Assembly: GCA_025934775.1 (NCBI GenBank)
Contig: JAICWO010000005.1
Span: forward strand, 124,001 to 188,000
Direction: 5' to 3'
DNA length: 64,000 nucleotides
Origin: Gemmatimonadaceae bacterium
Lineage (GTDB): Bacteria > Gemmatimonadota > Gemmatimonadetes > Gemmatimonadales > Gemmatimonadaceae
Part shown: positions 45,335-56,296 of the stretch, piece after piece
How the letters are laid out: each line of letters begins with the position of its first letter
Numbering within the stretch: the stretch's first letter is position 1
Made by a program: the position numbers and the translations under genes
Notes under the pieces: model-generated
Seen by the model: only the letters and a program-made list of their open reading frames with translations
Database searches by the model: none
What the model was told of the DNA's origin: nothing

Positions 45335-45446
45335 GTCATCCCGAGCGAGCGAAGCGAGTCGAGGGATCTGGGCTCGTTGCGAGCTGGATCGCGCAACGAG
45401 CCCGGATCCCTCGACTTCCGCGCTTCGCGCCTGCGCTCGGGATGAC
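45335..45446. repeat. solo palindromic repeat, family 1
   Basis: The outer arm GTCATCCCGAGCGAGCGAAG runs inward through TCGAGGGATCTGGGCTCGTTGCG; the opposite arm (CGCAACGAGCCCGGATCCCTCGA to GCTCGGGATGAC) is its complement, with a nine-base loop AGCTGGATC. It lies inside the paa operon, between paaB and paaC, so it does not act as a complete terminator. The element is a near-copy of 56185-56296 and has the same arms as the GIY-YIG element at 52993-53405. Confidence 0.9.
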
Positions 45447-52165: not shown

Positions 52166-52948
52166 ATGAGCGACGTCTTGAGCGATGCCGCGGACGGCGT
52201 GGTCACGATCACGCTGAACCGGCCCGAGGTGCTGAACAGCTTCACGCGTCCCATGGCGCGCGCGCTGTGCGAGGCGTTCGCCGCGGCCGCGGCGGACGAG
52301 GCGGTTCGCGCCGTGGTACTCACCGGCGCGGGGCGCGGCTTCTGCGCGGGTCAGGACCTGGCCGAGGCGGCGCCGAAGCACGGACCGCGTCCGGACCTGG
52401 GAGATATCGTCCGCGACAGCTACAACCCGGTGATCCGCGCCATTAGAAAACTGGAAAAGCCCGTCGTTGCCGCCGTCAACGGCGTTGCCGCCGGTGCGGG
52501 CGCGAATCTGGCCTTCGCGTGCGACATCGTGTTCGCGTCGTCGGCCGCGGTGTTCGTGCAATCCTTCGCGAAGATCGGCGTCATCCCGGACAGCGGCGGC
52601 ACGTTCATCCTGCCGCGCATCGTTGGCCTTCACCGCGCGACGGTCATGACGATGCTCGCCGAGAAGATGAGCGCCGAGCAGGCGCGGGATTGGGGGCTGG
52701 TGTACATGGTGACCGAGCCCGAGGCGCTGCTCGAGACCGCCGTTGGCACGGCCCGCCAGCTCGCGACGCAGCCGACCCGCGCCCTCGGGCTCATCAAGCG
52801 CGCCTTCAACCGGTCGCTCGGCGTGGATCTCGACGAGCAGCTCGACGTCGAGGAATCGCTGCAGCGCGAGGCAGGGCGCACGGCCGACTACGCGGAGGGA
52901 GTGACGGCGTTTCTCGAGAAGCGAAAGCCCGTGTTTCGGGGGCGGTGA
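52166..52948 (+). CDS. paaG: 2-(1,2-epoxyphenyl)acetyl-CoA isomerase / enoyl-CoA hydratase PaaG
   Basis: A 260-residue crotonase-fold protein with GAGGAG before the ATG. LNRPEVLNSFTRPMARALCE, GAGRGFCAGQDLAEAAPKHG, VNGVAAGAGANLAFACDIVF, FAKIGVIPDSGGTFILPRIV and the C-terminal YAEGVTAFLEKRKPVFRGR match PaaG/PaaB-type isomerases, which turn the epoxide into oxepin-CoA. It sits in the paa cluster, before paaHIJYZ, and is divergent from the fused E1 gene. Confidence 0.9.
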   Translation: MSDVLSDAADGVVTITLNRPEVLNSFTRPMARALCEAFAAAAADEAVRAVVLTGAGRGFCAGQDLAEAAPKHGPRPDLGDIVRDSYNPVIRAIRKLEKPVVAAVNGVAAGAGANLAFACDIVFASSAAVFVQSFAKIGVIPDSGGTFILPRIVGLHRATVMTMLAEKMSAEQARDWGLVYMVTEPEALLETAVGTARQLATQPTRALGLIKRAFNRSLGVDLDEQLDVEESLQREAGRTADYAEGVTAFLEKRKPVFRGR

Positions 52949-52954
52949 AGGCCA

Positions 52955-52978
52955 GTCATCCCGAGCGGAGCCGCGTAA
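52955..52978. repeat. partial arm of palindromic repeat, family 1
   Basis: GTCATCCCGAGCGGAGCCGC begins a second, truncated copy of the outer arm found 38 bases later at 52993. It diverges after about 24 bases. It may be a remnant of a nested or earlier insertion of the same element just after paaG. Confidence 0.75.
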
Positions 52979-52992
52979 CGGCTGGACCCCGT

Positions 52993-53052
52993 GTCATCCC
53001 GAGCGGAGCCGCGCAGCGGCGGAGTCGAGGGATCTGGGCTCGTTGCGCAACG
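52993..53052. repeat. left arm of the palindromic element carrying GIY-YIG
   Basis: This 60-base arm starts GTCATCCCGAGCGGAGCCGC and ends GGGCTCGTTGCGCAACG. Its partner is at 53352-53405 in inverted orientation. The GIY-YIG stop codon begins two bases after the arm. In solo copies (45335-45446 and 56185-56296) the same arm end is followed directly by a nine-base loop. Confidence 0.9.
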
Positions 53053-53054
53053 AA

Positions 53055-53342
53055 TCACCATTTGGCGGATAAATCCTCCCATGCGGGGTTTTGCGATTGG
53101 ATCAGTCGTATCTTTTTCTCGCGCGTCCAGTTCTTGATCTGCTTCTCACGAGCGATGGCGGCGCGGACATCATTCGTGGGTTCCAGGTGCACGAGCGAGA
53201 GGGCGTTGTATCTCGATGTGAATCCGGATCGGCTTCGTGAGCGATGCTCGGCCAAGCGCCGCGACATGTCATTCGTCACGCCGACGTAGAGCACGCGTCG
53301 GTGACTGGATAGGATGTACACGAAATAGGTCTTGCCAGGCAT
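53055..53342 (-). CDS. GIY-YIG endonuclease inside a palindromic repeat
   Basis: A 95-residue single-domain nuclease of the UPF0213/YhbQ-like group. YFVYILSSHRRVLYVGVTND holds the YVYIL and YVGVT (GIY-YIG) elements; the following MSRRLAEH has the catalytic Arg/His region, FTSRYNALSLVHLEPTND comes next and REKQIKNWTREKKIRLIQ carries the metal-binding Glu. The gene fills the space between the inverted arms at 52993-53052 and 53352-53405: stop codon two bases from one arm, start codon nine bases from the other. It is opposite in direction to the flanking paa genes. It is a candidate for the enzyme that moves or maintains the repeat family. Confidence 0.9.
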   Translation of the reverse strand: MPGKTYFVYILSSHRRVLYVGVTNDMSRRLAEHRSRSRSGFTSRYNALSLVHLEPTNDVRAAIAREKQIKNWTREKKIRLIQSQNPAWEDLSAKW

Positions 53343-53351
53343 ACGGTGTCT

Positions 53352-53405
53352 CGCAACGAGCCCAGATCCCTCGACTCCGCCGCTGCGCGGCTCCGCTCGG
53401 ATGAC
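53352..53405. repeat. right arm of the palindromic element carrying GIY-YIG
   Basis: CGCAACGAGCCCAGATCCCT through CCGCTCGGATGAC is the reverse complement of the left arm at 52993-53052, including the GGAGCCGC/GCGGCTCC variant shared only by these two arms; one G of the terminal CTCGGGATGAC is missing. Identity in the variable inner part shows both arms belong to one element. Confidence 0.9.
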
Positions 53406-53461: not shown

Positions 53462-54652
53462 ATGCCCCTCGATAACGAAACTCTCATTGGCGTCATTGGC
53501 GCCGGAGCCATGGGGAGCGGGATCGCGCAGGTCGCCGCCGCGGCGGGGCATCGCGTCGTGCTCGGTGACGCCGCGCAGGGCGCTACGCAGCGCGCGCAGG
53601 CGAAGATCGGCAAAGCGATGGATCGCGAGGTGGCCAAGGCGCGGATGAGTCGCAATGCCGCGGATGAGGTGCTCTCGCGAGTGGAATATCAGTGGGAGCC
53701 GCTCGGCGATGACCTCTCGGCGTTCCGTCATTGCGGACTCGTGATCGAAGCCGTCGTCGAGGATATCGAGATCAAGCGATCGATCTTCCGCCGGCTCGAA
53801 GGCGCGGTGAGCGGGGATGCGGTGCTGGCGACGAATACGTCGTCGCTCTCGATCACCTCCCTCGCCGCCGCATGCCAGCGCTCGGATCGCGTGATTGGAT
53901 TGCACTTCTTCAATCCTGCGCCGGTCATGCCGCTCGTCGAAGTGGTGCCGTGGGTTGGCAGCGATCCGCTCGTTGCGAGCAGTGCGTATGCGCTCATGCA
54001 ACGCTGGCGCAAGACGCCGGTGCTCGCGAGCGACACGCCAGGGTTCATCGTCAATCGGATCGCGAGGCCGTACTACGGCGAGGCGATTCGCATGCTGGAA
54101 GAACGTGTCGCCGACGTCGCCACGATCGATTGGGCGATGACGGAGCTTGGCGGCTTCCGCATGGGGCCGTTCGAGCTCATGGACTTCATCGGCAACGACG
54201 TGAACTTCGCCGTCACGCGATCGGTGTTCGAAGCGTTCTTCTACGAGCCCCGCTATCGGCCGTCGCTCACGCAGCAGCGGCTCGTCGAAGCGGGGTTCCT
54301 CGGCAAGAAGAGCGGCCGCGGCTACTACGACTATCGCGAAGGCGTCGCGCGCCCCGAGCCAAATCGCGAGCGCAATCTCGGCTCGCTCATCGTCGAGCGG
54401 ATTCTCGCGATGCTGATCAATGAGGCGGTCGATGCGGTCTTCATCAACGTGGCATCGCCAGCGGATATCGATCTCGCGATGACGAGCGGGGTAAACTATC
54501 CGAAGGGTTTGCTCGCTTGGGCGAACGAGATTGGACTGGAGCGGGTGCTCGGCTGGCTCGACCGGCTCCACGGTGAGTACGGCGAGGATCGTTACCGCCC
54601 GAGCCCGCTGCTCCGGCGCATGGTTCGCGACGGTCGGCGGTTCTTCGAATGA
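53462..54652 (+). CDS. paaH: 3-hydroxyacyl-CoA dehydrogenase PaaH
   Basis: A 396-residue NAD-dependent enzyme. The start MPLDNETLIGVIGAGAMGSG opens the Rossmann fold; TNTSSLSITSLAAACQRSDR, GLHFFNPAPVMPLVEVV (catalytic His), DTPGFIVNRIARPYYGEAIR and the C-terminal TSGVNYPKGLLAWANEIGLE are conserved PaaH segments. It oxidises 3-hydroxyadipyl-CoA. At 396 residues it has the C-terminal part but not the full-length second dehydrogenase half of the roughly 480-500-residue E. coli form. The stop overlaps paaI by four bases (ATGA). Confidence 0.92.
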   Translation: MPLDNETLIGVIGAGAMGSGIAQVAAAAGHRVVLGDAAQGATQRAQAKIGKAMDREVAKARMSRNAADEVLSRVEYQWEPLGDDLSAFRHCGLVIEAVVEDIEIKRSIFRRLEGAVSGDAVLATNTSSLSITSLAAACQRSDRVIGLHFFNPAPVMPLVEVVPWVGSDPLVASSAYALMQRWRKTPVLASDTPGFIVNRIARPYYGEAIRMLEERVADVATIDWAMTELGGFRMGPFELMDFIGNDVNFAVTRSVFEAFFYEPRYRPSLTQQRLVEAGFLGKKSGRGYYDYREGVARPEPNRERNLGSLIVERILAMLINEAVDAVFINVASPADIDLAMTSGVNYPKGLLAWANEIGLERVLGWLDRLHGEYGEDRYRPSPLLRRMVRDGRRFFE

Positions 54653-56184: not shown

Positions 56185-56296
56185 GTCATCCCGAGCGGAG
56201 GCGCGGAGCGCCGAAGTCGAGGGATCTGGGCTCGTTGCGAGCTGGATCGCGCAACGAGCCCAGATCCCTCGACTCGCTTCGCTCGCTCGGGATGAC
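56185..56296. repeat. solo palindromic repeat, family 1
   Basis: GTCATCCCGAGCGGAGGCGC starts the arm, which runs through GGGATCTGGGCTCGTTGCG; after the nine-base loop AGCTGGATC the complement returns and ends GCTCGGGATGAC. Loop and inner arms are identical to the copy at 45335-45446; outer arm bases differ by compensating changes. It lies between paaJ and paaY. A partial outer end (CGGATGAC) recurs at about 56328-56335. Confidence 0.9.

Follow-up and report, generated by a model that had tools for sequence, protein, structure and literature searches.

A GIY-YIG gene between the arms of a dispersed palindrome

The window, a stretch of 64,000 nucleotides from a Gemmatimonadaceae bacterium (contig JAICWO010000005.1), contains on its reverse strand a small stand-alone gene (53055–53342) encoding a GIY-YIG nuclease of 95 amino acid residues. 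GIY-YIG (PF01541; 53.3 bits against a cut-off of 22.6 bits) is the only Pfam match of the protein, and no HUH tyrosine transposase domain was detected. A second small GIY-YIG gene was not detected anywhere in the 4.88-Mb genome. The putative catalytic residues, as judged from sequence comparison, are invariant among relatives (Y9, Y19, R29, H33, E66 and K70 in the 30 compared). The predicted model of the protein (pLDDT 87.8) has as its nearest solved folds UPF0213 protein BH0048, followed by Slx1, a nuclease that processes branched DNA. The gene is under purifying selection, with dN/dS values of 0.01–0.11 in most usable gene pairs and of 0.26–0.55 in two very close pairs that hold few changes (dS 0.03–0.05).

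The gene is bracketed by two complementary arms, as the first-pass annotation had noted. The left arm (52993–53052, forward strand) and the right arm (53352–53405, reverse strand) include a perfect inverted repeat (52999–53047 and 53352–53400) of 49 nt that is 100% complementary (49/49), with the two halves 304 nt apart. The start codon lies nine bases from the right arm, in agreement with the earlier reading, while the stop codon, placed two bases from the left arm by that reading, is two bases from the looser boundary at 53052 but seven from the end of the perfect arm. A further partial copy of the repeat (52955–52982, forward strand), 93% identical to 52993–53020, is found just upstream of the left arm.

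Two palindromes without a gene, one between paaB-like and paaC-like genes (45335–45446) and the other between the thiolase and paaY-like genes (56185–56296), share the arms of the gene-bearing element. Both are real, near-perfect hairpins (single-strand folding z = −12.0 and −10.3, respectively); their central loop measures 10 nt, not the nine first reported, and is no remnant of the gene ends. The arm core is present in 60 copies in the genome (up to 3 mismatches), with none for the reversed-pattern control. Most are gene-less palindromes, many of them head-to-head pairs with a short loop. One copy holds the nuclease gene, and six on other contigs (L039:864-1220, L040:508-865, L041:365-750, L041:5172-5540, L042:325-730 and L043:581-920) hold non-coding loops of about 220–300 nt. 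The long loops are themselves imperfect palindromes; in these six copies the arms of the element are conserved and the interiors have diverged, and one copy folds at z = −13.4. Searches of the six copies revealed no GIY-YIG match, no conserved open reading frame and no Rfam family.

Read from its outer end, each arm opens with GTC-AT and has the sequence GTCATCCC...GGGATCT, the copies facing each other in pairs. CGTC-tagged REPs have a CGTC or TGTC tag, a stem beginning with AT and a mostly head-to-head dimeric arrangement, and in the published families the stem measures 8–9 bp, the loop 4–5 nt and a CCA tail is present in most cases (Di Nocera et al. 2013, PMC3733652). The window REP shares the tag, the AT-starting stem and the head-to-head pairing with these families but differs in its longer, interrupted stem, which is followed by CT(GGG) with no CCA tail, and is therefore CGTC-like and outside the four published families. 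The GTAG tag of the REPIN-RAYT system is not found, the window tag being GTC-AT. The element is a dispersed palindrome, as first described, though not a private one: its arms represent one form of a (C/T)GTC-tagged REP superfamily that is widespread and has two classes. In a related genome, eight tandem REP tags with a 20-bp period were observed (G003:C9:147907-148062), and therefore the repeats also amplify in tandem.

The very stable folds of the repeats would also suit a system acting at the RNA level, in which the transcript hairpin is the target and the protein is a ribonuclease or an RNA binder, and a 2006 survey noted the fusion of GIY-YIG to an RNA methylase domain (PMC1564403). We consider this explanation highly improbable, as the repeats turn over at the DNA level (see below), among the closest relatives of solved structure, those whose substrate is known are active on branched DNA, and no Rfam family matches the loop-bearing copies.

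Association of the gene subgroup with REPs

Relatives of the gene were sought by protein alignment in a scan of species genomes, which yielded 80 from about 19 phyla, chosen with flanks disregarded. Those from the family of the window and from named records of a plasmid collection brought the total to 108, all found by protein sequence alone. A recognisable REP lies within 300 bp of 99 of the 108 relatives and of 34 of the 206 neighbouring genes; none was recognised near the other 9 relatives. Related genes without flanking arms, which the first-pass annotation had named as the finding that would speak against a link, are therefore the minority. A flanking inverted repeat with a score of at least 16 was found for 18 of the 80 GIY-YIG genes versus 1 of 1176 same-size control windows of related loci. 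Outward-facing tags in head-to-head arrangement flank 18/80 of the genes at no more than 100 bp on either side, but 0/215 control genes of the same loci. The distance between arm and gene is often a matter of a few bases at both ends, as in L088 with 2 bp on either side. Given the 60 arm-core copies against none in the control and the 18/80 against 1/1176 flanking repeats, a chance origin of the arms is excluded.

REPs are present on both sides of the gene in Neisseria gonorrhoeae, Sinorhizobium meliloti, Azospirillum lipoferum 4B and Novosphingobium aromaticivorans, where the flanking repeats are CGTC REPs of the published type and all of which belong to taxa listed with such REPs (PMC3733652), and also in Shinella, Sphingobium, Rhizobium sp. 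CIAT894 and Aeromonas caviae. A weak or negative result was obtained for Rhizobium tumorigenes and Photobacterium sp. GJ3. The REP-flanked GIY-YIG gene of A. lipoferum 4B (L173:2489-2782) separates sufB from sufC within the suf operon, and that of Planktothrix agardhii (L179:2498-2782) has an MmeI-type restriction gene on one side and drmA, a DISARM gene, on the other. The N. gonorrhoeae, S. meliloti and A. caviae records (NZ_CP119142.1, CP090106.1 and NZ_AP026896.1) are multi-megabase sequences filed as plasmids that, judged by size, look like chromosomes or fusions. One in-frame stop codon was observed in each of four REP-flanked GIY-YIG genes (L144 in G010, L146 in G032, L065 and L108), and these sequences suggest recent inactivation there.

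By contrast, sister UPF0213-like small GIY-YIG genes of the same phylum, many of them from the same genomes as the REP-associated genes, have neither a REP (0/20) nor an inverted repeat with a score of at least 14 (0/20). Neither being a small GIY-YIG gene nor residing in a REP-rich genome therefore accounts in itself for the link. Among 12 second copies of the REP-associated subgroup, class-B motifs (see below) were found in 3 and inverted repeats with a score of at least 14 in 7, so that second copies are either less tightly associated or have diverged repeats.

The REPs fall into two classes, whose definitions have the weakness of having been written after the arms had been viewed: class A comprises short-hairpin REPs with a CCA-like tail, and class B those of the form GTCAT(T/C)N(T/C)GA...GAATCT. 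The class-A repeats of the relatives have the stem, loop and CCA-tail plan of the published CGTC families. In a quick tree of the 108 proteins, a 17-member clade (SH-aLRT 97) has 13 members with class A as the main class, none with class B and 4 with neither; the remaining 91 proteins include 86 with class B, none with class A and 5 with neither. The split between the clade and the other proteins is complete (13 vs 0; 86 vs 0). Both classes occur within the family of the window, where the proteins of G030–G032 are in clade A and their genomes contain 66–162 class-A and no class-B pattern matches, and where G000, G003, G004, G013, G070 and G082 carry class-B repeats; REP class is therefore not simply a property of the host. 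For 18 later loci from other families, all of them predicted as class B from protein similarity, 14 were class B, none had a majority of class A and those not in agreement had no detectable class, a test that covers class-B predictions only. The REP classes follow the protein phylogeny.

The gene and the repeat families also occur together. Within the genus, repeat counts are 29, 40, 169 and 195 in the four gene-bearing genomes and zero in the two that lack the gene. At least four repeats of either class are present in 12 of 14 gene-bearing versus 4 of 112 gene-less genomes of the family, and in the rest of the phylum, where gene-bearing means a protein match with E ≤ 1e-20, REP families are found in 15/21 and 13/168, respectively. 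The p values for co-occurrence (8e-12 and 2e-10) are too small, as they ignore relatedness; the within-genus contrast (4/4 vs 0/2) has the same direction as the family and phylum counts. The first-pass annotation had also counted against itself any finding of solo repeats in gene-less genomes at positions that never vary; such genomes are few (the 4/112 and 13/168 above), and repeat positions do vary between congeners. The exceptions to co-occurrence are G158, G012, G033, G007 and G312. In G158 there are 177 class-A pattern matches and no nuclease relative was found; its repeats may have outlived the gene or never needed it. The many REPs without the gene in G158, G012 and G033 indicate that the repeats can persist in its absence. 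The gene-less family genomes with repeats (G007, G012, G033 and G072) each have only two long-frame GIY-YIG matches, and possibly the gene was lost there while the repeats survived.

The occurrence of REPs in some gene-less genomes, and near 12–17% of the neighbouring genes in the same loci, would be expected if the association were passive, that is, if intergenic space is densely occupied by REPs and is also the only place where small accessory genes such as those for GIY-YIG proteins survive, with no functional link. Such an explanation is very unlikely in view of the absence of REPs in the sister subfamily of the same phylum (0/20), the prediction of REP class by protein clade, the co-occurrence of gene and REP family, and arms that often lie a few bases from both ends of the gene.

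Filled and empty sites and the proposed role of the nuclease

The insertion site is marked by two genes outside the element, a crotonase gene on the left (52166–52948, forward strand) and a 3-hydroxyacyl-CoA dehydrogenase-like gene on the right (53464–54652, forward strand). The second directly follows the first in G001, G002, G003 and G005, where the junction is empty. The junction is occupied by a GIY-YIG gene in G004 of the genus and in G013 and G112, which belong to other genera; in G111 a GIY-YIG gene adjoins the same crotonase gene, which precedes it in all four genomes. The orientation of the GIY-YIG gene at this site is constant and the arm sequences vary between genomes, a pattern that suits a gene long kept in place with repeats turning over around it. 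A single origin of the five crotonase-site genes is neither proved nor rejected by the AU test (p 0.27).

Gene-less pairs vary in the same way. At the site of the 45335–45446 pair, the junction is 8–24 nt in G001, G002 and G005 and a different REP pair is present in G004; at that of 56185–56296, the genes abut in G003, no REP is found in G004 and a different REP pair is present in G002. Gene-bearing and gene-less pairs are thus present or absent at the same sites among congeners. Close genome pairs differ mostly inside REP clusters, and neither a target-site duplication nor an exact insertion boundary was found between them.

A gene between perfect inverted arms, together with numerous copies that share the arm ends but lack the gene, is also what an ordinary transposon with MITEs would leave, the gene and its inverted repeats moving as a unit and the solo palindromes being internally deleted derivatives. 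Pairs from the Rhizobiaceae and from Nitrospina, in which related genes are at different places and only the gene and arms are alike, point the same way. This is nonetheless an improbable account: in the family the gene is as a rule present in one copy per genome, its site in the genome is shared by three genera whose arms differ, the loop of the solo copies does not derive from the gene ends, and no target duplication was seen between close genome pairs. No sign of classical transposition was found.

We consider it likely that the protein is a nuclease with a cognate population of (C/T)GTC-tagged REPs, its gene being in the spacer of a head-to-head pair. Based on the association across about 19 phyla, the repeats are very probably the target sites of the enzyme itself, and we infer that the nuclease may cleave and mobilise them. 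Recognition by the enzyme would be of the tag and the base of the hairpin where the DNA is single-stranded or extruded, a state that could arise at the replication fork, during recombination or on DNA uptake, and the cut would be made there; repair or recombination after the cut would then copy or homogenise the repeats. One long-kept nuclease gene could in this way sustain a REP population, as RAYT transposases do for GTAG REPs.

Within this reading, the main alternative, a close and non-exclusive one, is that the enzyme tunes DNA uptake and recombination rather than spreading repeats. In its strict form, this would be maintenance or control of recombination without spread, where cutting of single-stranded or extruded REPs limits or steers recombination, DNA uptake or hairpin damage and the repeats are kept as useful sites. 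The likeness of the predicted fold to Slx1 is consistent with such a role, and a Neisseria member reportedly modulates transformation. We regard the strict form as possible but rather unlikely, as the positions of the repeats change from one congener to another, and among genomes in which the gene occupies a shared site the repeats vary in sequence. These two observations require some copying process, though not necessarily one carried out by this enzyme.

More tentatively, and with somewhat less than even confidence, we suggest that nucleases of this GIY-YIG subgroup supply, across the Bacteria, the dedicated enzymes that CGTC-type REPs have so far lacked. They would form a second REPIN-like replicator system parallel to the RAYTs, where copying and homogenisation of a palindromic repeat population fall to a hydrolytic nuclease rather than to a transposase and the nuclease clade sets the repeat class. 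The 2013 survey of CGTC REPs, which occur in many bacterial genomes, found no dedicated enzyme and left the question open (PMC3733652); the clade-to-class rule, the co-occurrence and the empty and filled sites make it accessible to laboratory tests. If the nuclease does drive repeat turnover, this would be a transposase-free route for seeding genomes with hairpins, and the likely targets of many small nucleases could be read from the repeats that flank their genes.

Comparison with known systems

No paper in the literature searched links GIY-YIG nucleases with REPs; a 2025 survey of REPs does not mention the nucleases and the 2006 survey of GIY-YIG proteins does not mention palindromes (PMC1564403). 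The first-pass annotation knew of no report naming such a system, a claim of novelty that probably fails. Outside that literature, a 2025 paper, probably from the group of F. Veyrier in Nature Communications, reportedly describes under the name Ssn a GIY-YIG family, widespread and made up of site-specific single-strand nucleases; its Neisseria member is reported to target the NTS, a sequence of which there are hundreds of copies, and to modulate transformation. The N. gonorrhoeae relative, which may be the Neisseria member of Ssn, has NTS/dRS3-like repeats around it, 12 in 50 kb against 0 in the control. Like Ssn, the window protein is a small stand-alone GIY-YIG protein, 48% identical to the N. 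gonorrhoeae relative (alignment A2), and repeats of the matching type are present in many copies in its genome and beside its gene. It differs in its class-B repeat, with a longer interrupted stem and no CCA tail, and in its position outside the Neisseria clade, in a host of a Gemmatimonadaceae-like family. If Ssn is as reported, the window gene is a new member of this kind, and what may be new is the link to the orphan CGTC REPs, the co-variation of two classes, the sister-controlled co-occurrence and the filled and empty sites.

The predicted fold of the protein is that of the UPF0213 or prokaryotic Slx1-like GIY-YIG proteins (1zg2, 1ywl), and the profile match is significant, but the UPF0213-like genes of the phylum form a separate, weakly matching group that is never REP-flanked (0/20). 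With the GIY-YIG homing endonucleases it shares the catalytic domain and possibly a cut-and-copy logic; unlike them, it has 95 residues with neither an intron nor an extra DNA-binding domain, and it would face many repeat sites and not one uninterrupted target. The parallel drawn by the first-pass annotation, to REP/RAYT systems with a different nuclease family, holds. As in REPIN-RAYT systems, a usually single-copy gene is flanked by head-to-head REPs, gene-less pairs are dispersed in the genome, and the gene stays in place while the repeats turn over. The difference is in the enzyme and its repeats: RAYTs are HUH tyrosine transposases that recognise GTAG REPs, and here a GIY-YIG nuclease is associated with CGTC-like REPs.
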